Below are positions 51,390 through 64,000 of a DNA stretch of 64,000 bases, one piece after another. The stretch covers positions 10,044,001 through 10,108,000 of the forward strand of contig NZ_CP022098.1 in assembly GCF_002305875.1 (NCBI RefSeq). Reading direction: 5' to 3'. Source of the DNA: Cystobacter fuscus (GTDB taxonomy: Bacteria; Myxococcota; Myxococcia; Myxococcales; Myxococcaceae). A model generated the notes under the pieces. That model searched no databases and was not told where the DNA came from. It worked only from the letters and a program-made list of their open reading frames with translations. The position numbers and the translations under genes were made by a program. Numbering within the stretch: position 1 is the first letter of the stretch; every line of letters begins with the position of its first letter.

Positions 51390-51418
51390 TTGACAGGTGG
51401 GGGGGCCATCCCTAGGGT
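51390..51418 (+). promoter_or_regulatory. Sigma-70-type promoter of the ArsA-like pair
   Basis: TTGACA (51390-51395) and TAGGGT (51413-51418) are separated by exactly 17 bases: a full-consensus -35 and a partial -10. Transcription would start near 51425, so the message begins only about 5 bases before the ATG at 51430 and has no ribosome site. Confidence 0.5.
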
Positions 51419-51429
51419 CCCCCCTCCCG

Positions 51430-52350
51430 ATGGGCGCGCTGTTCGACAAGCGGTTGTGGATCGTTTCCGGCAAGGGTGGCGTGGGCAAGAGCACCGTCGC
51501 CGCCGCCCTGGCCCTGCGCTCGGCACGTGCGGGCCGCCGCACCCTGGTGTGCGAGGTCAATACCCAGGAGCGCATCAGCGGCCTGCTCGGACATCGCCCC
51601 GTGGGCCCCCAGGTCACTCCCCTGGAAGACAACCTGTGGGCGGTGGACGTGCGCCCCCAGGAGGCCATGCGCGAGTACGCGCTCATGGTCCTGCGCTTCG
51701 AGACCCTCTACAAGACGGTCTTCGAGAACAAGGTGGTGCGCTACTTCCTGCGCTTCATCCCCTCGCTGCAGGAGCTGGTGCTGCTCGGGAAGATCCTCTT
51801 CCACGCCCAGGAGAAGCGCCCGGATGGCCAGCCGCTGTGGGACACGATCGTCATGGACGCTCCGGCCACGGGCCACGCCATCACCTTCCTCCGCGTGCCC
51901 CAGGTGCTCATGCAGACGGTGCCCCCCGGGCCCATGTCCCGCGAGGCCCTGAAGATGAAGGATCTCCTGGAGGATCCGGCGGTGACGGCCGCGGTGCTGG
52001 TGTCGCTGCCCGAGGAGATGCCGGTGAACGAGACGCTCGAGCTGCACGCCGCGCTGCGCGACCAGGTGCGGGTGCGCACCCACGCGGCGGTGCTCAACGC
52101 CACCTTCCCCGAGCGCTTCACCGAGGATGATCTGGAGGCCCTGGTGGACCAACCCGAGCTGTTCCAGCTCGCCCGCGCCCACCACGCCCGCGCGGCGCAG
52201 ACGGTACTCGCGCAGCTCAAGCTGGAGCGCAACCTGCACGTCCCCGTCCACTCCGTGCCCCGCATCTTCACCCCGTGCTTCGACCGCTCGGCCATCGAGC
52301 AGATCATCACCCACCTGGAGCCGCTGGTGACGGGGAAGGCGGCCCCATGA
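51430..52350 (+). CDS. ArsA/Get3-family ATPase, first of pair
   Basis: The 306-residue P-loop ATPase has the deviant Walker A IVSGKGGVGKSTV with the signature Lys, a switch-like MDAPATGHAITFL segment and a C-terminal half without a visible arsenite-binding cysteine set. ArsA/Get3 relatives target tail-anchored proteins or pump anions. Here no arsenic genes are present. It overlaps the next ATPase by an ATGA, so the two probably form a heterodimer, as proposed for actinobacterial Rv3679/Rv3680-type pairs. The ATG at 51430 lacks a Shine-Dalgarno; see promoter. Confidence 0.86.
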   Translation: MGALFDKRLWIVSGKGGVGKSTVAAALALRSARAGRRTLVCEVNTQERISGLLGHRPVGPQVTPLEDNLWAVDVRPQEAMREYALMVLRFETLYKTVFENKVVRYFLRFIPSLQELVLLGKILFHAQEKRPDGQPLWDTIVMDAPATGHAITFLRVPQVLMQTVPPGPMSREALKMKDLLEDPAVTAAVLVSLPEEMPVNETLELHAALRDQVRVRTHAAVLNATFPERFTEDDLEALVDQPELFQLARAHHARAAQTVLAQLKLERNLHVPVHSVPRIFTPCFDRSAIEQIITHLEPLVTGKAAP

Positions 52351-53492
52351 ACGCGCTGTCGGAAGCCCTCGCGTCCAAGCGCGTCCTGGTGTCCGTGGGT
52401 TCGGGGGGCGTGGGCAAGACGACCGTCTCCGCCACGCTCGCCCTGCGCGCCGCGGTGGATGGCCGCAGCAGCCTCGTGTGCACCATCGACCCGGCCAAGC
52501 GGCTGGCCAACTCGCTCGGGCTCAATGCCCTGGGCAACGTGGAGGCCGAGGTGCCCGCCAGCGCCCTGGCGCCGCTGGGCGTCACCGCCCGCGCCCGCCT
52601 GCACGCGATGATGCTGGACATGAAGCAGACGTGGGACGATCTCATCGTCAAGAACGCCCCCGCCGACAAGCGCGAGAAGATCCTCGCCAACCGCTTCTAC
52701 CAGTCGCTGTCCAGCGCGCTCGCCGGCAGCCAGGAGTACGTGGCGATGGAGAAGCTCTGGGAGCTGCGCACCCAGCGCGACTACGAGCTCATCGTGCTCG
52801 ACACGCCACCCACCGCGCACGCGCTCGACTTCCTGGAAGCCCCCAACCGGGTGCTGGACTTCCTGGACAACGAGGCCGCCCGGTGGCTGCTCACCCCGGC
52901 GCTCGCCGCGGGCAAGGTGGGCCTGTCGCTCTTCAACCTGGGCAGCAGCTACATGGCGAAGACCATCTCCCGCTTCACCGGCACGGAGACCCTGCAGGAG
53001 CTGGCCGCCTTCATGCTCTCCATCGCCCCCATGAACGAGAGCTTCCGGGTGCGGGCGCGCGGCGTGCGCGAGCTGCTGGAGGCGGAGCAGACGGGCTTCG
53101 TCCTGGTGACCAGCCCCGGCCGGGAGCGCCTGGACGAGGTGGTGCACTTCCACAAGCTGCTCAGGCAGAACGGGATGGAAATCGTGGCCGTGGTGGTCAA
53201 CCGCGTCCACCCGATGCCCCCTGCTTCCCTCTGGGAGGAGGCCCGGAGCCTCATTCCCGCCCGGCGCGCGAAGGTGGAGCAGACGCTGCGGGAGATGACG
53301 CTGCTGGCCGAGCAGGACGCCCGCGGCATCCTCGAGCTGCAAGCCGCCTGCGAGGGCACACCCCTGGTCCAGGTGCCACGCTTCGAGATGGACGTGCACG
53401 ACATCGGCGCCCTGTGGCGCACCGGGCGCTTCCTCATGGGCGAAGAGGTGATTGCCCTGCCGCCGCCCCAGCTCACGGCCGGCCAGGGCTGA
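52347..53492 (+). CDS. ArsA/Get3-family ATPase, second of pair
   Basis: The 381-residue partner has VSVGSGGVGKTTVSATLAL, where the first, signature Lys of the deviant Walker A is replaced by Ser, and a switch region LDTPPTAHALDFL. The Lys in GKTT is kept, so ATP is probably bound, but hydrolysis may depend on the partner's Lys. This split is as in Rv3680-like proteins. Longer helical C-terminus, no membrane segment. Convergent with the PAAR-like gene. Role in myxobacteria unknown. Confidence 0.84.
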   Translation: MNALSEALASKRVLVSVGSGGVGKTTVSATLALRAAVDGRSSLVCTIDPAKRLANSLGLNALGNVEAEVPASALAPLGVTARARLHAMMLDMKQTWDDLIVKNAPADKREKILANRFYQSLSSALAGSQEYVAMEKLWELRTQRDYELIVLDTPPTAHALDFLEAPNRVLDFLDNEAARWLLTPALAAGKVGLSLFNLGSSYMAKTISRFTGTETLQELAAFMLSIAPMNESFRVRARGVRELLEAEQTGFVLVTSPGRERLDEVVHFHKLLRQNGMEIVAVVVNRVHPMPPASLWEEARSLIPARRAKVEQTLREMTLLAEQDARGILELQAACEGTPLVQVPRFEMDVHDIGALWRTGRFLMGEEVIALPPPQLTAGQG

Positions 53493-53548: not shown

Positions 53549-54571
53549 TCATGAGCAGGTCGCGCAATGCTGATGCCCCTGGGTGTGTCCGCCGCGATTC
53601 CCACCTCGCAGGCCTTTCACCAGCTTCATCAGCCCGCGCGCGACGTCGCCCCAAGGGGGCATGGGAAAGCCCCCAATCAGGACGTTCGGCTGCCCGGTGA
53701 CGAGGGCCCCCAAGCCAGGGATGAGCCCCGGGTCCTTTCCAACCAACAGGGACATGGCCATGGCGGCGGCATCGGCGGCGAGCTGGGCCGCGGCCATTCC
53801 CGCCGCCAGTGCCTGGCCGGAGGCCGCGGCGGCGTTGGCTGCCGCCGCGGCGGCGGACTCGGCGGGCGCGGCGCTTGAAGCCGCCGCGTCCTGCAGGTTG
53901 GTGACCACGCTCAACGCGCCCGCCGCCATTCCCGCGCCCATCATCACCTTCGACAGCTTGGACATCGGACCCGCCGATGGGGTGCAGTGCTTGGTGATGT
54001 CCCCCATCCGGGCGGCCCGCGCCCCGCCGATGAACACCTTGCTCGAGCCGGTGAAGATCTCCAGCGGTGGAGTGAAGGTCCCGCAGGTGACGGAGACGCC
54101 CACATCACCGGCGCGCGCCGCCGGAAGGCCATTGATGAGCACGGAGACACAGCCACTGAGCAGGACCGTGCCAATACTCGGCAGTGGAATGGGTGGGGCT
54201 GGCGGGATGAGGCTGGGCGGATGGGAGTGCGGATGCGGCAGCCCCACGTGCAGGGCCGTGAGCGTGGCCGCTGGCAGTGCGGGCAGCATGGCCGACACGG
54301 CGTTGGTGGCCAGCGCGAAGCCCGTGTTGAGCAACTCCACCGGCGCGCCAATGGCGCCCAGCACACCCGACAGGAGCTGATTGAGTTCACCGACCGAGCC
54401 CTGGTGGGCGGGAGGCGCGTTCTGGAAGGGCGCGGCCGTGCGGTTGACCACCGTCGCGAAGGAGTCGAGCGCGACGTTCTCTCCCGTGGGCTGCACCAGC
54501 GGCTTGGGAGGGCTGGGGGGATGCTGGGCTTGGCGCACCGCTTGGTGGGCCGCTGTCGAGCCTGGAATCAT
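53549..54571 (-). CDS. PAAR-like T6SS spike-tip protein
   Basis: PAAR proteins sharpen the VgrG spike and carry or adapt effectors. The 340-residue product has PAAR-type elements LINGLPAARAGDVGVS and VFIGGARAARMGDITKHC, and a third at NVLIGGFPMPPWGDVA. The PAAR halves are split by an Ala-rich hydrophobic helix stretch (about residues 225-300). Its ATG at 54571 follows GGAGG and overlaps the TPR stop (ATGA). It shares strand and style with the Rhs gene 4 kb to the right and probably carries it with the VgrG. Confidence 0.85.
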   Translation of the reverse strand: MIPGSTAAHQAVRQAQHPPSPPKPLVQPTGENVALDSFATVVNRTAAPFQNAPPAHQGSVGELNQLLSGVLGAIGAPVELLNTGFALATNAVSAMLPALPAATLTALHVGLPHPHSHPPSLIPPAPPIPLPSIGTVLLSGCVSVLINGLPAARAGDVGVSVTCGTFTPPLEIFTGSSKVFIGGARAARMGDITKHCTPSAGPMSKLSKVMMGAGMAAGALSVVTNLQDAAASSAAPAESAAAAAANAAAASGQALAAGMAAAQLAADAAAMAMSLLVGKDPGLIPGLGALVTGQPNVLIGGFPMPPWGDVARGLMKLVKGLRGGNRGGHTQGHQHCATCS

Positions 54572-55818
54572 CGTGCCTCCTCGCGCCCGGACAGGGCCCT
54601 CAGTTCCGCCAGACACTGCTGCCGCTGCTGCCGCATGCCCGCGTTCTCGTAGAGCCGCGCCATGCGCTCCAGCGCCGAGCGGAGTCTGTCCAGATACCCG
54701 ACGCTCCGGCAGAGCATCGCCGTGTCGTTCCAGGCACGCAGCGCTCCCGCCGTGTCCGACTGGTACTCCCGGGCCAGACCCAGTTTCTCCAGTGCATCCG
54801 CCTTGGCGTGCGCGTTGAGCGCCTTGGCGGCGACCCGGTCCGTGATGTCGAAATAGCCCTCGGCGTCCGGGTACTTCTTCAACTCCAGGCAGACCTCGCC
54901 CGCGGCCATGGAGAGGTTGAGCAGCACGGGCAGCGCTTGGGTCTGGATGGCCAGCGCGAGCCCCTGCTGGTAGCGCTCCCGGGCCTTCTCAGCCTGGCCG
55001 AGTTGCCGCAACACATCACCCGCGCCCTGCAGGCAGAGCGCCTGCATCGCCTTCGCGTCGTGCTCCGCGTAGTAGTCGTGCAGCAGGCCATACTTCTCCA
55101 GGGCCTGCGGGTAGCGCCGGTGGGAGTAGTCGAGCGCCGCGACCTGGAGTAGTGCTTGCATCCGCTGCGCCACGGGCCTGCTCTCATCCACCGCGTCCCG
55201 CGCGAGCCCATCGGTGAGCGCCGCCGTGCTCAGGTCCACCTCGTAGACCAGCACTCCCGGCGCCCGAAGCCTATGCAGCAGCGGCCCCAGGAAGGGCTCG
55301 GAGCGATCATCCCGGACGATGATGCGCAGCGAGCGCATCCACGGCTCGTAGCCGTCCACGGGGAGCAACTGGCTGACGAGCTCCGCGTAGCCGGAGCGAT
55401 CCTTCAACGTCGGCGGCAGCAGGCACCAGACGAGCCGATGGTCCGCCTCGATGGGAATCAGCGAGCGGACATGGATCATCGCCGCCTGGAGCCGCGTGTG
55501 CGGAGGAAGGCGCATGTCCTGGCATCGCGTGGGCAGCGGCGCCCAGCGGGGCCCGCCCTTCGCCGCTCGCGCGGTGTTGGCCATTTCGAGCTGGGCCGCG
55601 ACGCCCGCGTTCACCGCCGTCACGTACTGCGCCACCGGACCGGCTTCCGGATCGCATACCAGGAACAGATCCGCATCCATCTCCTCGTCCAGCCCCTGGA
55701 GCGTCTTGAACACCCACGCCATCTCGTCATCGCGAGCGCTCACCACCAGGATGAGCGAGTCGCGTTGATCGACGAAGTTCCGGAGGGTCGCCTGCAACTC
55801 CTGGAGTTTTCGTTGCAT
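54568..55818 (-). CDS. TPR-repeat protein linked to PAAR gene
   Basis: The 416-residue product has an N-terminal Rossmann-like segment (SLILVVSARDDEMAWVFK, HRLVWCLLPPTL) and C-terminal TPR repeats from about residue 230 (QALLQVAALDYSHRRYPQAL, then AQALCLQGAGDVLRQLGQAE and further). TPR proteins often chaperone or adapt T6SS effectors, and overlap with the PAAR gene supports that. Start uncertain: ATG at 55818 (chosen, no good ribosome site) or GTG at 55851. No family name is known to me. Confidence 0.7.
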   Translation of the reverse strand: MQRKLQELQATLRNFVDQRDSLILVVSARDDEMAWVFKTLQGLDEEMDADLFLVCDPEAGPVAQYVTAVNAGVAAQLEMANTARAAKGGPRWAPLPTRCQDMRLPPHTRLQAAMIHVRSLIPIEADHRLVWCLLPPTLKDRSGYAELVSQLLPVDGYEPWMRSLRIIVRDDRSEPFLGPLLHRLRAPGVLVYEVDLSTAALTDGLARDAVDESRPVAQRMQALLQVAALDYSHRRYPQALEKYGLLHDYYAEHDAKAMQALCLQGAGDVLRQLGQAEKARERYQQGLALAIQTQALPVLLNLSMAAGEVCLELKKYPDAEGYFDITDRVAAKALNAHAKADALEKLGLAREYQSDTAGALRAWNDTAMLCRSVGYLDRLRSALERMARLYENAGMRQQRQQCLAELRALSGREEAR

Positions 55819-55870
55819 GGTCGAAGGAATCGCTGAATGTAGTGTGGGCACAAGAGGGAGTCAAAAGCGG

Positions 55871-56980
55871 ATGATCTACCTGGACCATGCTTCCGCCACC
55901 CCCGTCATGGAGCCCGCGCTCGAGGCCATGATGCACGCCGCGCGTGAAAGCTGGGGCAACCCGGCCTCGGTACATGGGGCGGGCCGACGAGCCCGCGCCG
56001 CACTGGATCAGGCGCGCATCGCCGTGGCCGATTACCTGGGCTGCTCGCACGCGGAGCTGCGCTGGGAGCCGAGCGGGACGGCGGCGCTGGGACACGCGCT
56101 GCGCTTCGCGCTCCTCCACACGCGAGGGCCGATCGTCTCCAGCCACTTGGAGCACCCAGCCGTCCGCGGACCTCTCGAGGAGGTGGCCAAGCAGGGCCGG
56201 GAGGTGCGGTGGTTGCCACTCCCTGCGGGAGAGTGGGAGGAGGCACAGGCCACGAAGTACTTGGAGGGAGCGGAGGTGGTGGCGCTCTCCGCGATGAACC
56301 ACGAACTCGGCACCGCACCAGACCTCGCGCCGCTGCTGGCGCTCGCGCCACGGGCCTGGTGGGTGGTGGACGCGGTGCAGGCGGCGGCGTGGCGGGACGT
56401 GCGCCCATTGCTGGAGCCCCGCGTCTTCCTCGCCTGTGCCTCCCAGAAACTGGGGGGACCCCCCGGAGCGGCCGTGGTGCGTGTACCTCCGGAGTTGGCC
56501 TTCTCGCCCGCGGCTGGGGTGGCCGCGGCCTTCGAGCCCACGCCGGGTTCTCCTCCCTGGTTGGCGGCCATCGGCATGGGGGCCGCCTGCCGCGAGCGCA
56601 AAGCCCTGCTGCCCGAAGGGCTCCCCCAGGTGCGCGCACGCGCCCTGCGGCTGCTGGAGGTCATGGGACGGGCGTGTCCCGAACTCGTTCACAACGGGGG
56701 GAAGAGCTGGTTGGGCCCCATCCTGGATGTCTCCATTCCAGACATCGATGCCCGAACGATGGAGTCCGCACTGGACCTGCGGGGCATCTGCATCGCGCGC
56801 ACCTCCGCGTGCCTGCAGGCGCGCGTGGTGGCCTCACCGGTGGTGGCCGAGGCCTTTCCCGAGGAACCCTGGAGGGCAGACACGGCCCTGCGCTGGAGCC
56901 TGGGGCTCACCACCACGGACGAGGACATCCTCCAGGCGGTGGAGGCCTGGAGGTCCGCGCTCGGGGAGCTGCGTCCATGA
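55871..56980 (+). CDS. Cysteine desulfurase / class V aminotransferase homologue
   Basis: The 369-residue PLP enzyme starts MIYLDHASATPV as NifS/IscS proteins do. It keeps SAMNHELGTAP, the PLP Lys in ACASQKLGGPPGAA (the usual His before Lys replaced by Gln) and a SAC Cys (RTSACLQARVV), so it may release sulfur from cysteine. The Q-K and the SACLQA loop differ from typical SHK and SACSSG. It lies on the opposite strand within the T6SS/Rhs cargo cluster and is convergent with the immunity-like gene, a context I cannot explain. Start at ATG 55871. Confidence 0.8.
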   Translation: MIYLDHASATPVMEPALEAMMHAARESWGNPASVHGAGRRARAALDQARIAVADYLGCSHAELRWEPSGTAALGHALRFALLHTRGPIVSSHLEHPAVRGPLEEVAKQGREVRWLPLPAGEWEEAQATKYLEGAEVVALSAMNHELGTAPDLAPLLALAPRAWWVVDAVQAAAWRDVRPLLEPRVFLACASQKLGGPPGAAVVRVPPELAFSPAAGVAAAFEPTPGSPPWLAAIGMGAACRERKALLPEGLPQVRARALRLLEVMGRACPELVHNGGKSWLGPILDVSIPDIDARTMESALDLRGICIARTSACLQARVVASPVVAEAFPEEPWRADTALRWSLGLTTTDEDILQAVEAWRSALGELRP

Positions 56981-57010: not shown

Positions 57011-57955
57011 TCAGCGGGAGGAGAGCCACCCACGCGCACCCAGCACCTGCTCCAGGTGCCCGGCATGGCGGGCGTTGGCGGAGAGCCGCACGGAACCGGA
57101 GGGTGATGCGGCGAGGAGGATCCCCACCCCCTCCAACATTCCCACCCGGTAGTCCATGCCTTGCTCCAGGCCTCGCAGCTTCCGCAGATCGGGCAGGGCC
57201 GCATCCACGTGCTCGAGGGACACGGACAACGGCCAGACCCTGCCGGGCAGGTGCGGGACGTGGAGGGCCTCCAGGTCCCGGGCCGACGCGAGCCAGTCGA
57301 GCAGCGCCTCGAACCGGGCATGGCTCAGGGTGGGTTCGGGCGCTTCATCCAGGGCATTGAGGGGAAGCGCCCAGACCTCCTCGGACAGCCGCAACGCCGC
57401 GGGCACGAGGTGGGGATACGGACGGCTGACTCCCGCCAGGGCGGTGAGCGGGGGCTGGGTCTCGACCCGCGTCCGGTACCAGCCATCCAGCGCGAACGTG
57501 AGCACCCGGTGGCCCGCGAGCCGGAGATAGCCCGGGAGAGAGGGCCGCACGGTGCCCTCGTCCGCGGAGATGAAGAGCACCGGAGGATCCGCCTCGCCAC
57601 CGTCCTCGTTGGTGATGGAGAAGCCCACTCCCTGGTTGGGATCGGGCTCGGCCAGCCGGAAGTGCCGGGGCAGGTCCTTCAGTTCCAGCGCGAAGCCCTC
57701 GCCCCAGGAGCGCCACTCCGCCATGTAGCGCTCGGCCCTCTTCCGCCCGCTCTCGCGCTCGGGTTCACCCAGCAGCTCCGCCAGCAGGGGCGTCCAGCCG
57801 AGGGACTCCCAGAAGGCGCGGACGAGAGCAGGCTCCGTCTCGTCCAATCGCACGGGGCGCATTGAGTCGGCGACGCGCCTCGACTTGCGCACCACTTGCG
57901 CTCGCAGCGCGAGCGCCTCGGAGCGGATGAGTTCGGGAGTGGGAGCCGGGCTCAT
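57011..57955 (-). CDS. Putative immunity protein, paralogue B
   Basis: The 314-residue protein shares LVRAFWESLGWTPLL and GFALELKDLPRHFRL with the neighbour upstream (YVREFWEAVGW; FSAAWKRLPEKFRV), so the two are distant paralogues. The LP-x-x-[FY] region is suggestive of SMI1/KNR4-like immunity folds but the match is weak. It has no signal or membrane segment. It begins 4 bases inside the stop of the neighbour (ATGA). Position straight after an Rhs toxin gene argues for an immunity role; that is inference. Confidence 0.6.
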   Translation of the reverse strand: MSPAPTPELIRSEALALRAQVVRKSRRVADSMRPVRLDETEPALVRAFWESLGWTPLLAELLGEPERESGRKRAERYMAEWRSWGEGFALELKDLPRHFRLAEPDPNQGVGFSITNEDGGEADPPVLFISADEGTVRPSLPGYLRLAGHRVLTFALDGWYRTRVETQPPLTALAGVSRPYPHLVPAALRLSEEVWALPLNALDEAPEPTLSHARFEALLDWLASARDLEALHVPHLPGRVWPLSVSLEHVDAALPDLRKLRGLEQGMDYRVGMLEGVGILLAASPSGSVRLSANARHAGHLEQVLGARGWLSSR

Positions 57956-58980
57956 GACGCGTCACTAGCCCAGAGGTCGGGAGGCAGGGGCGTTGGGGGC
58001 TCTTGCAGTTCCAGCTTGTTATGCTTGATCCAATCTAGGGTGACCTTGAGGTTCTCGGGAGCCACGGTGAGCCAGAGCGTCGATGACTTGTTGTTGGTGG
58101 AGAGCCAGACGCCTCGGCCCTCGATGCGGCCCACGGCGTGCTTCACCTGACGCCTCAGCGGAGGGGGCGTGGTGGTCTCGAAACGCAGGAAGCCGGGCTC
58201 CGCGAGGCTGCCCGGATCGAACTTGCTGCTCGGCTCCAGGAGGAAGGTCTGGCCCGAAGGGGGGCCGAAACCCGGTAGCAGCTCAGAGGGTTGCTTCAGG
58301 ATGAAGTCGATGTAGCCCTCGAAGGACTCGTAGTAGATCATCTGCATGCCGTTGAGCAGATGGGCGGGGGCACGCGGACTTCTATCAACCCCCCAAATCC
58401 CCTCGGCCAGCTCCCGCAGTCCCGGAAAGGCCGCACCAAGAATGGGCTCCCCCCAGGGCTTCTGCACGTACGCGGCGGCCTTGCGCTTGCCCATCACCCG
58501 CTCCAACGTGGAGCGGATGACGTGGTCGAGGAAATGCTCCGGTTGTTTCACGAGCTGGGCCCGTGTCGGCTTGAGTTCATGCACGAGTGGATCATTCTCG
58601 CCCGTTGTTTCATCGATCAACGCGGAGCCGTACTCGCTCGGCGCGATGACGCGGAACTTCTCGGGCAAGCGTTTCCAGGCGGCGGAGAAGTCTCCCGGCT
58701 CCGCGCCCCAGGCATCACGGATCTCCGCGTTCTCGAACCAAGCCTCGAAACACTCCTGCATATAGGACCGGGAGGCCGCTCGCTCAGGCCGCAACGTCCG
58801 GGGCGAGTCTCCCCCTCCCCCCACCGCATCACTCCAGCCAACGGCCTCCCAGAACTCCCTCACGTACCGTGGTGCGTCCTTCTCAAGCTGGCAGTGTTGA
58901 CGCATCCGGCGATGCCGGGGGCAGAGCCGGTCGAGCAGCGTGGCGAATCGCCGCAGACCCGCCGAGATTTCATCAGTCAT
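57952..58980 (-). CDS. Putative immunity protein, paralogue A, next to Rhs toxin tip
   Basis: The 342-residue protein begins MTDEISAGLRRFATLLDRL, right after the Rhs stop codon (15 bases apart). It shares the WEAVGW and LPEKF motifs with the next gene. No signal peptide. First gene after a toxin-tipped Rhs is typically the cognate immunity gene, so this is the best candidate. AAAGGAC precedes the ATG at 58980. Note that the ribosome site falls inside the palindrome at 58983-58998. Confidence 0.62.
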   Translation of the reverse strand: MTDEISAGLRRFATLLDRLCPRHRRMRQHCQLEKDAPRYVREFWEAVGWSDAVGGGGDSPRTLRPERAASRSYMQECFEAWFENAEIRDAWGAEPGDFSAAWKRLPEKFRVIAPSEYGSALIDETTGENDPLVHELKPTRAQLVKQPEHFLDHVIRSTLERVMGKRKAAAYVQKPWGEPILGAAFPGLRELAEGIWGVDRSPRAPAHLLNGMQMIYYESFEGYIDFILKQPSELLPGFGPPSGQTFLLEPSSKFDPGSLAEPGFLRFETTTPPPLRRQVKHAVGRIEGRGVWLSTNNKSSTLWLTVAPENLKVTLDWIKHNKLELQEPPTPLPPDLWASDAS

Positions 58981-58982
58981 CC

Positions 58983-58998
58983 TAGAAAGTCCTTTCTA
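58983..58998. repeat. Inverted repeat at the Rhs stop / immunity start
   Basis: TAGAAAG and CTTTCTA form 7-bp arms with a 2-base centre, spanning the Rhs stop codon and the ribosome site of the immunity-like gene. In the message it could form a small hairpin that tunes immunity translation. Confidence 0.6.
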
Positions 58999-61900
58999 AG
59001 GGCATGAACCATCGCATGTACCGTGCGTTCTATCGATGTTCGAACCCAGGTCGAAGTCCCTATACATTTTTCTCTCATGGTCATAGAACAACACTTTATA
59101 ATTCCTACCACTGTCGGCCATCTTCTTCAATGTATCTGGCAAGGTATTCTGGCAGTGACTGCAAGGCGGACGGTCGACATAGATGGTCGCGGAGGTCACA
59201 TTATTCTTGTCCAAGTAATTGAGCGCCTGATTTTCCGAGTGGGTCCAATTCCCACTATCGCCCTTGGTATGTTTGATGGCGGCATTGGCCCGGACCGTGT
59301 TCTCCGTGGGATTACCGTGACCGCTGATGAAGGCCACCGGCTCGCTGGGGTCATCGGGGTCATTGAAAATGACGACGGCCATGCACTTGCCCCCTTTTCC
59401 GTCCTCATCGAAGGATCGAGCCTTGTAATCCTTGTAACCCTTTCCCATGTCTGTATTGACATAGCGATTCTGGGGGTTGGAGAGATCGGGAGTGCCATCA
59501 CTCAGGAAGGGATCTAAACCCTGGAAAGCCCAGGGATAGGGGCCTCCCGTGACGGGGGTCAGCCCCAGCACATCCATCCATTCCACCGGGCTGGGAACGT
59601 AGGCGTATTCGTTCAACCCGCCGCGCAGCCCGATGGGATCCGGGCTGATGTACCTGCCGAGTTCCGGATCGTAGTAGCGCGCATGATTGTAATAAAGGCC
59701 TGACTCGGTGTCGTAGCTCTGCCCGGGGAAGCCCGGTTCGCCCTCGCTGACCTGGGCAACTGGCTGGCCCCAGGTGCCACGCCGGGCCGCCCACACCACA
59801 TGTCCGTCCGGGGTGACACGCTCGCTCGCACTGCCAATCTGGTCTGGCAGCACGTAGTGAGTCACCCCCGCCCGCTGCTCCAACACCGGAATGGGCTGGT
59901 TCGGGTGGTGGAGGCGGGTGGTGAGCTCGCCCGAGGGCTCCATCTCGTGCAACAGCCTGAGGCCATCCCACACGTAGCGCCGGGTTCCCCGCGGCCCGTG
60001 TTTGGCGGTGCGGCGGCCGATGGCGTCGTACTCATAGGTCCACAGCTCGTCATCGGGACGGGTGAGAGTCACGAGCTGGCCGAGAGCGTTCCACGCATAG
60101 CTCCACGTCTCGACCTTGTCGTTGCGATGGACGTGCTTGCGTACCAACCGTCCCTGCCCGTCGTACTCGTAACGCAGGCTCCGGCCGGTGCATTGCAACT
60201 CCACCGTCTGGTTGCCTTTGGGGGAGATCGCCACGGACAGGTCGGCACCAGCATTGGACAGCTCGATGATGTCGAGCATGGGCAGGCCTTGCGCGCTCCG
60301 CCGGAGTGAGCCCTCCAGGATGGAGCTGGCCATGCCATCCGCCAGGGTCGCGGCGGTCTGCCGGTTTCCCGCAGCGTCGTAGTCGAAGAGTTCGAGTTCC
60401 CCCGTCGAGTGTTGCACCGACTGCAGCCGGCCCGCGAGGTCATGGGTGAAGCGCCTCCAGCCGCGCGACGAGTCGTCGATGAAGGCCACATGGCCCATGA
60501 CGTCGTAGCTGAAGCTGCGGCGCAAGGGGATGGGCAGCTCCAACTGCCCCGGTGACGTCCATCCCGCCTCGGCAACAGCGCCGGAGGGTTGCACGAGACG
60601 CTGCTCCACCAGGCGGCCCAGACGGTCATAGGCCTGCTCGAACACAGCTCCTCCGGGAAGGATGCGCTGCAACTCCTCACCCAGCAGCCCATGTCGGAAG
60701 CGCAAGGGTCCCTCGGAGTGGTGGATGGCCGAGCACAGGCCCTCCGGGCTCCAGTCGAAGCGGGCGTGCGCGCCCAGGTCCGAATTCAGCTCCAGCCGCC
60801 GCCCCATCGCGTCATAGGCGCTCCGCACGGCCACGCCATTGTGGAACTCCGCGACCGTCCGCCCGAGTGCATCGTGCTCGTAGACGATCTCCGAGCCAAG
60901 TGCCGAGACCTTCACCAGCCGGGAGTGCCCATTGTACTCGTAGCGCGTCCGAGCGCCGTCCGAAGTCCGGCGCTCGACGAGACGGTTCTCGGCATCGTAG
61001 TCGAACTCGTAGCGCTCGCCGGTCGGGGAGATGAGGGCGGTGAGGTTGGCGGCGAGATCGAACTCGTGGTGCGTCACCGAGCCATCCCAGTGGCGCCGGG
61101 AGACGGCCCGGCCCTGCGCGTCATAGGTCCACTCGGTTCGCTGACCCCGCGCGTTCTCGAGCGCGAGGAGGCGGCCAGGCTCGGTGTCCCATTCCAAGCG
61201 GCGGTGGGTCCCGTCCCGGGCGATGAGTTCCACCACCTGCCCACAGGCATTGTAGCGGGCCCGGCTCATGGTTCCGCCCGGCTCCTTCACGGCGGTACAC
61301 CGCCCGCCCCCGTCGTAGGTGTAACTCCAGGTGCGTCCGTCGGGCGACTCGACGCTCGCCAAGTTGCCAGCACGGTCATAGGTGTAGCGTGAGGTGCTGC
61401 CCTGGGGATCCGTCACGCTGACGCGCCGTCCGTATGAATCATGCCCGGCGCGCCAGACGCGGCCATCCCGGGTGACGAAGGCCGACAATTCACCGCGCGG
61501 CCCCCATTGCCGTTGATCCTCGTGGCCGAGTGGATCTCGGACCGTGACCAGTTCACCGTACTCGTTGTAGCGGTAGCTCCATTCCTGGCCCGCCGGATCG
61601 ATGAAATGGGTGCAGCAGCCCTCCTCGTCGAACCCATACGACCAGGCGTCGGCGCCAGACGTCACCCGGGTGGGTTGATGCCGCTCGTTGTATTGGATGG
61701 TGTAGCGCAGTGCGCTCCCCGGAGGGAGGATGGCGCACAACCGCCCAAGGTCATCGTACTCCAGCGTGCGCTGCTGCTTGTTCACGCCGCGGATGGAGAC
61801 CAGGCGAGCCTGGGCATCGTAGGAGTAATGGGCCTCGCCTCCCAGAGGGAAGAGGACGCGCGTCACCTGTCCGGCCTCGTTGTACGAGTAGGTTGTCACG

Positions 61901-62763
61901 TGGCCGTGGCTGTCGGTGACACAGGTGGTACGCCGGGCTGCGTCGTACTGCAGGGTCCGCTCCTCGTGGCGATTGGCCCCTGCGGCGTAGACACAGCGCC
62001 CCTCCACGTCATAGCGAAAGGAATACACAGCGCCGCTGCACCGCGCTTCCGACACCATTCGCCCACTGGCGTCGTACGCGAAGGCGGACACCTCGCCCAC
62101 CCGGTCGGTCACCCGTATCAGGTGGCGGTGCTCATCGAAGGTGAAGCGGGCGACCAGCTCCCGCCCCCCCGCCACCTCGAACCAGATGCTGGCCAACTGA
62201 TCGTTCGCCGTGTATTCCAGACGCAATGAACGATTCATCCGCGTCTGCGTCACGCGCACGAGGCGCTCGCGGATGTCGTATTCGAATGTCAGCTTTACCT
62301 TGGGATTGAGTTGAATGGAGGTAAGCAGATAATCCAGGGAAGATGGCTTGCGGGCGAATCCCAGCTTCCAGGTGGGCTGATCCGAGCCGTAGAGCTGCAA
62401 TTCAACGTGGTTGGGATCTCCACGCAGTTCCAGCTGGTTCTGGGGAGAGCGGAGCAGGCCGGTGCGAGCAAACTGCCCGCCAACGTCCTCGAGGGCCAGC
62501 TCCGCCCCGGTCGAGTCGACGTAGGCGAAGCCGTCCACCGTCTGCCGGAATTCGTGCTGGAAGCAGTGGCGCCAGCCTGGCCCGAGTGGCTCCCCGCGCT
62601 GTCCGCCGAGCAATCCGGTGCTGTAGAACCGGTCGAAGGACAGGGGCAGCGCTCCTGGCAGGGCGAAGTCCAGAAAAGTGTTGAACAGCACGCCCGAGGA
62701 AACGTCTACCGGGTGCCCGACCGCGATTCTGCCAGTTGCTCCCATGGTGACAGTGGAATCCAC
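58996..62763 (-). CDS. Rhs repeat protein with C-terminal cytidine-deaminase-like toxin
   Basis: The 1255-residue protein has an N-terminal DUF6531-like Rhs start (GHPVDVSSGVLFNTFLDF), many YD repeats and the hyperconserved core end YYDPELGRYISPDPIGLRGG with YAYVPSPVEWMDVLGL. The variable tip (from about residue 1065) carries H1175-x-E1177 (THSENQALNYL) and C1201-x2-C1204 (DRPPCSHCQNTL), the zinc deaminase pattern, with order and spacing like the SCP1.201/DddA DNA deaminases. The tip DNA is AT-rich (24 of 60 bases G+C in 59041-59100). Start at GTG 62763, preceded by GGGGA. Divergent from vgrG; likely delivered by the T6SS. Confidence 0.9.
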   Translation of the reverse strand: MDSTVTMGATGRIAVGHPVDVSSGVLFNTFLDFALPGALPLSFDRFYSTGLLGGQRGEPLGPGWRHCFQHEFRQTVDGFAYVDSTGAELALEDVGGQFARTGLLRSPQNQLELRGDPNHVELQLYGSDQPTWKLGFARKPSSLDYLLTSIQLNPKVKLTFEYDIRERLVRVTQTRMNRSLRLEYTANDQLASIWFEVAGGRELVARFTFDEHRHLIRVTDRVGEVSAFAYDASGRMVSEARCSGAVYSFRYDVEGRCVYAAGANRHEERTLQYDAARRTTCVTDSHGHVTTYSYNEAGQVTRVLFPLGGEAHYSYDAQARLVSIRGVNKQQRTLEYDDLGRLCAILPPGSALRYTIQYNERHQPTRVTSGADAWSYGFDEEGCCTHFIDPAGQEWSYRYNEYGELVTVRDPLGHEDQRQWGPRGELSAFVTRDGRVWRAGHDSYGRRVSVTDPQGSTSRYTYDRAGNLASVESPDGRTWSYTYDGGGRCTAVKEPGGTMSRARYNACGQVVELIARDGTHRRLEWDTEPGRLLALENARGQRTEWTYDAQGRAVSRRHWDGSVTHHEFDLAANLTALISPTGERYEFDYDAENRLVERRTSDGARTRYEYNGHSRLVKVSALGSEIVYEHDALGRTVAEFHNGVAVRSAYDAMGRRLELNSDLGAHARFDWSPEGLCSAIHHSEGPLRFRHGLLGEELQRILPGGAVFEQAYDRLGRLVEQRLVQPSGAVAEAGWTSPGQLELPIPLRRSFSYDVMGHVAFIDDSSRGWRRFTHDLAGRLQSVQHSTGELELFDYDAAGNRQTAATLADGMASSILEGSLRRSAQGLPMLDIIELSNAGADLSVAISPKGNQTVELQCTGRSLRYEYDGQGRLVRKHVHRNDKVETWSYAWNALGQLVTLTRPDDELWTYEYDAIGRRTAKHGPRGTRRYVWDGLRLLHEMEPSGELTTRLHHPNQPIPVLEQRAGVTHYVLPDQIGSASERVTPDGHVVWAARRGTWGQPVAQVSEGEPGFPGQSYDTESGLYYNHARYYDPELGRYISPDPIGLRGGLNEYAYVPSPVEWMDVLGLTPVTGGPYPWAFQGLDPFLSDGTPDLSNPQNRYVNTDMGKGYKDYKARSFDEDGKGGKCMAVVIFNDPDDPSEPVAFISGHGNPTENTVRANAAIKHTKGDSGNWTHSENQALNYLDKNNVTSATIYVDRPPCSHCQNTLPDTLKKMADSGRNYKVLFYDHERKMYRDFDLGSNIDRTHGTCDGSCP

Positions 62764-62863
62764 AATGTCCCCGCCACGTCAAGTACGCGCCTGCTGGCCT
62801 GGGTGTGCTACTTTTGGTTCGAGCCGTTCCGGATTCGCTTGATTGCTGACGTGCTCGCGACAT

Positions 62864-62882
62864 GAGTCTATCTTTGAGACTC
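62864..62882 (+). promoter_or_regulatory. Small hairpin in the vgrG leader
   Basis: GAGTCT and AGACTC pair across 7 bases, ending 3 bases before the GGGGGAGG ribosome site of vgrG. It may be a minor structure; no promoter in the 139-base divergent gap with Rhs was convincing. Confidence 0.3.
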
Positions 62883-62902
62883 CACGGGGGAGGAACAAAC
62901 CC

Positions 62903-64000
62903 ATGTCGGACTGGAAGAAGCTGCTGAGTGATGCCGGGCAGGCCGTCCAGGCGGCTCAGACCGTGACGGGAGCCGCGCGCGCCGTCACGGGCCCACACAC
63001 CGGACAGGCCATCCAGACGGTGCGGACCCTGGTGGGGGCCGCGAGCGCCGTCACGGGCTCGGAGGACCTGGACTTGTTGAGCCAGGCCACGAGCCTGCTC
63101 TCCGGAGCGCTCAGACTGGAGAGTGTCCGCTTCGCCTTCTCCTCCGGAGGGGACCCGGCCAATTCCTGGCGCGTGCTCACCTTCCGCACAAGCGAGGGCC
63201 TTTCCGAACTCTACGCGTGCGTGGTGGACCTGGCCAGCGAGAGCCTGTTCGCCGATCCGGACGCGATGCTCGGGACCTCGTGCTCCCTCGCCGTCTCCCG
63301 GGACTCCCGCACGCGCCAGCTCCATGGCATCGCCCACCGCGTGGAGCACCTGGGCAGCAAGGATGGCAACGCCCTGGCGCGCGTCCACATCGTCCCGGCG
63401 CTCTGGGCTCTTTCCCAGCGTGTCGACTCCTACATCTTCCAGGAGATGGCGGTTCCGGAGATCCTCTCCGAGGTGCTGAAGGAGAGCCTGACGCCGTTCA
63501 AGCGCAATGTCCGGCTCGCGCTGACCCAGCAGTACCCCAAGCGCGAGTACTGCGTGCAGTACCGCGAGAGCGACCTGGATTTCGTGCTGCGTCTCATGGA
63601 GGAGGAAGGCATTTCCTTCTACTTCGACCACTCGGGCGAGGCCGAGGAGCTGGTGCTCATCGATGCCAACGAGTGCTGCGTCCCGTTGAATACAATGGAC
63701 GGACTGCCTCTTGGCATCCGTGGACCGGAGGCGGACACCGCGGACACGGAGTCCATCCGCGCCTTCGACTTCTCCCACGAGCTTCGGACCAATCGCGTGG
63801 TGGTTCGCGATTTTGATTGGAGCCGGATTCCAGGAGACGCCGAGAAGCAGCCGCTTCACGAGGAGGACACCGGAGCGAGTTCCGAGCTCGTGCTCATGGA
63901 GCGTTACGAGCACCAGTCCCCCATGACCCTGAGCGGCTACGATGAAGGAGCTGGCGCCTACACGGAGGGAGATGGCAAACGCCAGAGCAAGCTGCGCCTG
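62903..64000 (+). CDS. VgrG-like T6SS spike protein (cut by window end)
   Basis: The visible 366 residues show an N-terminal extension with two similar segments (QAVQAAQTVTGAARAVTG and QAIQTVRTLVGAASAVTG), then the VgrG gp27-like domain: FRTSEGLSELYACVVDLAS, VHIVPALWALSQRVDSYIFQ, CVQYRESDLDFVLRLMEEEG and GISFYFDHS. The gp5-like needle lies beyond the window. The extension is not usual for VgrG and may dock an adaptor. The ATG at 62903 follows GGGGGAGG. It is divergent from the Rhs toxin gene; the two are likely loaded together with the PAAR protein. Confidence 0.88.
   Translation, partial: MSDWKKLLSDAGQAVQAAQTVTGAARAVTGPHTGQAIQTVRTLVGAASAVTGSEDLDLLSQATSLLSGALRLESVRFAFSSGGDPANSWRVLTFRTSEGLSELYACVVDLASESLFADPDAMLGTSCSLAVSRDSRTRQLHGIAHRVEHLGSKDGNALARVHIVPALWALSQRVDSYIFQEMAVPEILSEVLKESLTPFKRNVRLALTQQYPKREYCVQYRESDLDFVLRLMEEEGISFYFDHSGEAEELVLIDANECCVPLNTMDGLPLGIRGPEADTADTESIRAFDFSHELRTNRVVVRDFDWSRIPGDAEKQPLHEEDTGASSELVLMERYEHQSPMTLSGYDEGAGAYTEGDGKRQSKLRL

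Follow-up and report, generated by a model that had tools for sequence, protein, structure and literature searches.

A predicted type VI secretion Rhs effector of Cystobacter fuscus with a deaminase-superfamily tip and a linked family of probable immunity genes

In a 64,000-nucleotide stretch of DNA from Cystobacter fuscus (NZ_CP022098.1, positions 10,044,001 to 10,108,000; hereafter the window), we found a gene for an Rhs protein whose variable C-terminal tip is assigned to the deaminase superfamily. Sequence comparisons support the view that the protein is a vgrG-linked effector of the type VI secretion system (T6SS). Taken together, the results suggest that the locus probably encodes a nucleic-acid cytosine deaminase that is delivered by the T6SS and comes with an immunity family of its own.

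The Rhs gene and its secretion island

The Rhs gene and the surrounding secretion genes are arranged as follows.

58996 to 62763, minus strand: Rhs effector gene, 1255 aa, GTG start (Pfam RHS_repeat 1.6e-79, DUF6531 1.2e-14)
58999 to 59571, minus strand: putative toxin tip behind the Rhs core, residues 1065-1255, deaminase superfamily
62843 to 64000, plus strand: vgrG, continuing beyond the window to 65476 (window numbering), divergent from the Rhs gene and 79 bases apart from it
53549 to 54616, minus strand: PAAR protein of the T6SS island (PAAR_motif 2.5e-13)
54568 to 55851, minus strand: TPR protein encoded in the T6SS island; islands lacking the cassette described below have it too

The Rhs core domain (Rhs_assc_core) occupies residues 998-1068 of the protein (E 3.5e-24). 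Rhs repeats, core domain and variable tip, which are features of T6SS Rhs effectors, are thus all present, and no PAAR domain appeared among the Pfam matches of the 1255-aa protein. The vgrG and PAAR genes are linked to the Rhs gene, and the same genome encodes the T6SS sheath, with VipB genes at four places, three of them full length. The G+C content of the tip is about 0.53, compared with 0.66 for the Rhs scaffold and 0.64 and 0.71 for the two genes that follow it, P0003 and P0004. Beside the PAAR gene, at 51397-53492, two overlapping ORFs resemble paired ArsA/Get3-type ATPases, as judged from their translations.

In the accessible part of PMC10433427, the T6SS and Rhs proteins of myxobacteria are described as carrying toxins against fellow myxobacteria and as acting in kin discrimination; the word 'deaminase' does not occur in the main text of that article. 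By analogy with those toxins, competition among relatives is a likely use of the Rhs toxin in the window.

Relatives, catalytic motif and family of the tip

Three short features of the tip, all predicted from its residues, are referred to below.

59233 to 59241, minus strand: H1175-S-E1177, predicted zinc ligand His and predicted catalytic Glu
59152 to 59163, minus strand: C1201-S-H-C1204, predicted zinc ligand pair, in RPPCxxC
59002 to 59004, minus strand: C1254, second-last residue of the Rhs protein, the Cys pattern of short Rhs proteins

When the tip was used as a single query against 144 relatives and 195 genomes of the phylum, it was found, besides its own genome (G000), only in G084, a genome of the same family, which holds tips A, B and C. 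A further relative came from a DNA pattern scan of GTDB species genomes, which returned 41 stretches, 7 of them in frame, and a single true relative, located in a Deltaproteobacteria MAG (L047). As this pattern requires RPPC and one particular codon, further relatives may well have escaped it, and the window itself would go undetected. The Rhs frame of L047 is interrupted by an in-frame stop that leaves two frames (L141 7719/7720), and the split gene would be either a pseudogene or the product of a sequencing error. Identity to the window tip is 43% for tip A and 36% for the L047 tip, and tips B and C were tied to this group by profile (E 2.2e-12 and 1.3e-9 in the five-sequence set).

We then compiled the window tip, tips A, B and C and the L047 tip into a five-tip profile. 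Among 193 genomes of the phylum it found four strong places in two genomes (E 3e-42 or better), namely the window tip and tips A, B and C; since each of these is itself a query row, the profile gave no further strong member in the phylum. Weaker places numbered 23, comprising 18 that are TadA-like as judged from sequence, two that belong to an unnamed deaminase-like protein and three that lack the motif (L096, L099 and L114). In genomes G058 and G083 of a related genus, frames of 303 and 272 aa (L094 and L095) carry HAE and PCC-x2-C and are weakly tip-like, not TadA-like. Among the 377 genomes of the G195 phylum, the profile matched only the genome of L047 and one weak place (L091), which was judged spurious, its frame lacking the motif. 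Peptide patterns returned 8 stretches on genome contigs and 14 on viral contigs, none of which was confirmed, and the DNA pattern returned no stretch on viral contigs. A plasmid source of the tip was rejected, with no plasmid match at E 0.01, as was a phage source, with 21 phage records matching solely around the dCMP/cytidine deaminase motif (E about 0.003-0.01).

A sequence-only reading had proposed that the tip is a DddA-like deaminase with a zinc site formed by H1175, C1201 and C1204 and with E1177 as its glutamate. All four residues were located at these places in the Rhs ORF (62763-58996), with E1177 and C1201 24 positions apart; on the minus strand, their codons are 59241-59239 (H1175), 59235-59233 (E1177), 59163-59161 (C1201) and 59154-59152 (C1204). 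As that reading had noted, the tip contains no rival cluster of His and Cys, yet in all five tips the last or second-last residue is a Cys. Its 'NTLP' context did not hold: the relatives show TL or SL without NTLP, which also argues against a DddA-like assignment. When the 192-aa tip was shuffled, HxE followed by CxxC 13-43 residues on arose in 435 of 200,000 sequences, and HxE followed by PCxxC (with the C counted) in 11 of 50,000. A chance origin of the motif was rejected on these rates and on its conservation in relatives.

Nine columns are invariant across the five tips, among them W1173, H1175, E1177 and C1201, and the second motif Cys is aligned in four of the five; tip C has C-x3-C. Tip B (L005 5443-5991) keeps the first Cys of PCxxC, and the second is displaced, with a CC pair some way further on, so that its residues suggest a zinc site that may differ. 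The strict motif was present in two tips among the 34 Rhs cores of G000 and G084, the window tip and tip A.

The C-terminal Cys was also seen in other short Rhs proteins. In a length class picked after the pattern had been noticed (open frame 1150-1460), 9 of the 11 short Rhs proteins encoded in G000 and G084 end in Cys or have it as second-last residue (window 59002-59004; L056, L058-L061, L072, L074, L076 and L087), and their tips are mostly unrelated. Five of these nine tips have no other Cys. Among the other Rhs tips, Cys occurs within the last five residues in 1 of 22. About 5% is expected. In three relatives it was found in one of two distinct complete tip types, at the third-last residue, and in none of four plasmid Rhs proteins from other taxa.

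In Pfam searches, the isolated window tip matched MafB19-deam (PF14437; 6.1e-5, 23.4 bits, cut-off 27), XOO_2897-deam (PF14440; 2.7e-4, 21.4 bits, cut-off 27), DddA-like (PF14428; E 0.0014 over tip residues 75-149, 18.9 bits, cut-off 25), APOBEC_N (4.1e-3, below its cut-off) and Pput2613-deam (12.7 bits, cut-off 25), and it passed the gathering cut-off of no Pfam deaminase family tried. At E up to 1, PF00383 matched all but one of the five tips, and DYW and YwqJ were absent both from the 8 families matched by the window tip and from the 12 matched by the five tips. Against the PDB, the five-tip profile matched dCMP deaminases (E 0.0054 and 0.0088) and APOBEC3 chains. In its alignments with 1vq2, 2hvv and 5k81, HxE and PCxxC share columns with the catalytic motifs of known deaminases, T4 dCMP deaminase among them.

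The fold was predicted with AlphaFold2 from a two-sequence alignment, which gave a model of low confidence (mean pLDDT 45; ten-residue blocks of the core elements, 45-73). This model contains strands 65-70 and 79-84, helix 113-123, strand 128-134, helix 144-154 and strands 158-165 and 170-175, that is, five strands and two helices in the order of a deaminase, with HxE and PCxxC just ahead of both helices. According to the accessible part of PMC7901873, the deaminase core consists of five strands and three helices; the first of these helices is missing from our poor model. The final two strands of the model are linked by a brief turn, which suggests the C-terminal hairpin division in the sense described in the available portion of PMC3482391.

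The best rows of a Foldseek search of this model against the PDB were deaminases, the best at E 0.015 and DddA chains at ranks 2-5 (E 0.026-0.031), with no row reaching E 0.001. By title or label, 35 of the best 50 Foldseek rows were deaminases or deaminase constructs and 15 were other proteins; with VIA-align 2 the count was 49 of 50. The VIA-align 2 Z scores, of a size that may stem from a common arrangement, reached 7.1 for cytidine deaminases, 6.5 for TOD6 (which we take to be a deaminase construct), 6.0 for a DYW domain, 5.6 for DddB (BadTF3) and 5.4 for DddA, placing free cytidine deaminases slightly above DddA.

From the motif alignment together with the fold comparisons, membership of the deaminase superfamily is taken as established, and the family is left open; a deaminase fold is very likely. 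The DddA-like assignment thus stood at the level of the superfamily and fell at the level of the family. Two points speak for a true DddA-like (SCP1.201/PF14428) enzyme that deaminates cytosine in double-stranded DNA: the presence of PF14428 among the matched families and the ranks of the DddA chains, which came from a model with a mean pLDDT of 45. We rejected DddA family membership on the PF14428 score, with MafB19-like and XOO_2897-like models scoring higher, themselves below cut-off. The lead of free cytidine deaminases in VIA-align 2 also points away from it. Furthermore, the available text of PMC3482391 lists Imm1 and Imm4 for SCP1.201 deaminases, while the proteins encoded beside the window tip match no Pfam family at E 1. 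This assignment is therefore rather improbable, and the tip appears, from its scores, to belong to a small clade claimed by no curated family model.

The adjoining gene family and the cysteine desulfurase

Three genes follow the Rhs gene.

57952 to 58980, minus strand: P0003, 342 aa, probable cognate immunity gene, beginning 15 bases past the Rhs stop
57011 to 57955, minus strand: P0004, 314 aa, paralogue of P0003 with a 4-base overlap with its end, candidate second immunity protein or regulator
55871 to 56980 (longest ORF from 55817), plus strand: cysteine desulfurase, tail to tail with P0004 (Aminotran_5 9.3e-26)

P0003 and P0004 are paralogues (BLAST E about 8e-7), and neither matched any model in Pfam or NCBIfam at E 1 or in PADLOC at 0.01. 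The fold model of P0003 (mean pLDDT 54) had no convincing match, with a best Foldseek E of 0.25 and a best VIA Z of 5.3. In G084, both paralogues adjoin tip A, with 42% and 48% identity to P0003 and P0004, one family copy adjoins tip B, and a fused two-domain ORF (L014 8545-10590), whose open frame begins directly past the Rhs stop, adjoins tip C. Both paralogues are present beside the tip in L047 as well.

A profile search of 193 genomes of the phylum found seven family domains, of which five lie in G084 and two in G000. Every one adjoins one of the four tips, and five of the seven were rows of the query itself. We located 34 Rhs cores in the two genomes, 15 in G084 and 19 in G000, where one scores below the family cut-off, and found members of the P0003 family within 1.5 kb of exactly four cores, those with the tips. 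By simple arithmetic, random overlap would produce this coincidence with a probability of 1 in 46,376. Five sequences from three of the four positive loci, together with two of L047, went into the profile, so only the C locus and the 30 negative cores are independent. Near the other short Rhs genes of G000 and G084 the family was absent (0 of 7). One of the large Rhs genes of G084 (L063, G084:C1:5848765-5849028) carries HAE and Cys pairs in its tip, and the 1.5 kb around its core contain no gene of the P0003 family.

Linkage of the family to this tip type was strict, and the cassette was seen in three genomes only. Judging from this linkage, it is highly likely that P0003 or P0004 is the immunity protein for the tip. 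They might instead be adaptors or loading factors for this type of Rhs, a role that would fit the paralogue pairs at three of the five tips (with a fused pair at one and a single copy at one), the large size of the proteins (313-344 aa each) and the lack of any convincing known fold for the P0003 model. The absence of the family beside the seven other short Rhs genes argues against this role, since it indicates that P0003 and P0004 track the tip rather than the scaffold or the secretion island, and we consider it quite improbable. For immunity with two genes there is a precedent: in the part of PMC9990079 available, two immunity proteins are described next to nuclease effectors, and one of the two acts as a transcriptional repressor.

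The desulfurase scored far below the cut-offs of the NCBIfam NifS, DndA and IscS models and matched SspA (2.4e-43) and DndA (4e-41) in PADLOC, matches that we take as general desulfurase similarity. It retains a Lys and the Cys of 'SAC', taken as the PLP and sulfur-transfer residues. A desulfurase lies beside the window-type tip in all three cases (the window; tip A, L005 12842-13966; L047 1893-3641). Among 96 genomes of the family, with up to 20 candidates scored per genome, a close ortholog (67%) was found only in G084; the next five of the matches listed, from five other genomes, had 32-35% identity with E below 1e-30. Between L047 and the window, identity is 45% for the desulfurase, 41% for the TPR protein and 57% over 183 aa for the PAAR protein.

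The gene order was then compared between loci. In the window it is PAAR(-), TPR(-), desulfurase(+), P0004(-), P0003(-), Rhs(-) and vgrG(+). In G084 it is PAAR(-), TPR(-), vgrG(+), RhsB(+), one paralogue(+), RhsA(+), P0003-like(+), P0004-like(+), desulfurase(-) and vgrG(+). L047 follows the order of the window with PAAR, TPR, desulfurase, both paralogues and Rhs with the tip, and no vgrG match was found on the 1.2 kb that remain of its contig. The TPR protein occurs in 5 of the 96 family genomes. In G049, G060 and G072, PAAR, TPR and vgrG are present, with TPR adjoining vgrG, and the Rhs genes carry other tips; these 19.9-kb stretches yielded no match to the paralogues or the desulfurase. In this sample of three, Rhs, both paralogues and the desulfurase thus seem to keep together as one cassette, with its position and orientation varying between lineages.

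Whether the desulfurase contributes to the function of this cassette was weighed separately, and we lean somewhat towards a bystander. It lies on the opposite strand, it comes from a large enzyme superfamily, no desulfurase-matching ORF was found among the ORFs listed beside tip C, and we know of no mechanism for its role in the cassette. Its distribution points the other way: the close ortholog is confined to the other cassette genome of the family, the gene recurs in L047 and was not found in the three islands that share PAAR, TPR and vgrG and carry other Rhs tips, and it stays next to P0004 even though the cassette differs in position and orientation between G084 and the window. No paper on a cysteine desulfurase in Rhs or T6SS immunity was found in the literature searched, which covered few subscription journals.

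Proposed mechanism and comparison with known toxin deaminases

The tip is very probably an antibacterial toxin. After delivery, it would be freed from the Rhs shell inside a neighbouring cell, where H1175, C1201 and C1204 would bind zinc and E1177 would serve to deaminate cytosine in a nucleic acid, DNA being the likeliest; this deamination would kill or mutate the target cell. P0003, with or without P0004, would shield the producer by binding the tip. The Rhs gene, P0003, P0004 and the desulfurase would form a mobile cassette inside the more stable PAAR-TPR-vgrG island. It is also conceivable that thio-modification of the producer's tRNA or DNA, fed by the desulfurase, shields the bases (or the backbone) attacked by the tip, in which case immunity would consist of a protein antidote and a modified target, as in restriction-modification; we regard this coupled form of self-protection as highly improbable.

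Cytosine in nucleic acid is a likely substrate of the tip. An RNA deaminase acting on tRNA, rRNA or mRNA would be consistent with the two top-scoring Pfam families, MafB19 and XOO_2897, which need not be DNA deaminases, with the TadA-like enzymes matched by the tip profile and with the DYW structures among the fold rows. However, representatives of BaDTF1, 2 and 3 all mutated DNA, as stated in the available text of PMC7901873, and action on RNA instead of DNA is unlikely. With DNA as the favoured target, a preference for the double-stranded form is doubtful to a similar degree; the accessible part of a commentary on Huang et al. (PMC10847098) states that many assayed SCP1.201 proteins have single-stranded DNA as their substrate rather than the double-stranded form.

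The general kind of toxin is already known from DddA, SsdA and BaDTF3 (PMC7901873, in the part available). As far as seen, three things are new: a clade that stays below every Pfam deaminase cut-off tried, an immunity-like family, and a desulfurase in the cassette. Judged by title, none of the papers listed from the literature on myxobacteria and Myxococcus, which covered few subscription journals, deals with this Rhs deaminase cassette. Some DNA base-editing tools derive from deaminase toxins, and clades beyond the curated families could act on other substrates or prefer other sequences. Tips A, B and C, three divergent subtypes within G084, together with the immunity-like family make the specificity between toxin and immunity directly testable. 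The desulfurase is an unexpected element and, if functional, would represent a kind of self-protection for which we found no paper.

DddA (BaDTF1, SCP1.201, PF14428) from the T6SS of Burkholderia cenocepacia shares with the window tip the link to this secretion system, a deaminase toxin domain and the Foldseek similarity, whereas the window tip falls below the DddA family cut-off and its neighbouring immunity-like genes belong to no Pfam family. MafB19-like and XOO_2897-like deaminases gave the best Pfam scores, both under the cut-off. The tip of L063, presumably a YwqJ-like deaminase, resembles the window tip in its HAE and Cys pairs and differs in lacking the adjoining P0003-family gene. SsdA (BaDTF2, DYW-like) and BaDTF3 (Pput_2613-like) are likewise deaminase toxins of bacteria that come with a cognate immunity gene, and SsdA is placed in the C-terminal hairpin division (PMC7901873, in the part available), as the short turn between the last strands suggests for the window tip. 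In contrast to both, the window tip has no DYW match at E 1 and a Pput2613-deam score of about half the cut-off.

A last comparison is with the sce3516-like Tox-Deaminase group, whose prototype comes from the myxobacterium Sorangium cellulosum. As far as the accessible part of PMC3482391 describes it, this group consists of polymorphic toxins, usually has HAE, belongs to the C-terminal hairpin division and counts the T6SS among its delivery routes; its listed immunity protein is SUKH, unlike P0003 and P0004. On the basis of these descriptions, the clade of the window tip may be identical with the sce3516-like group or a neighbour of it.
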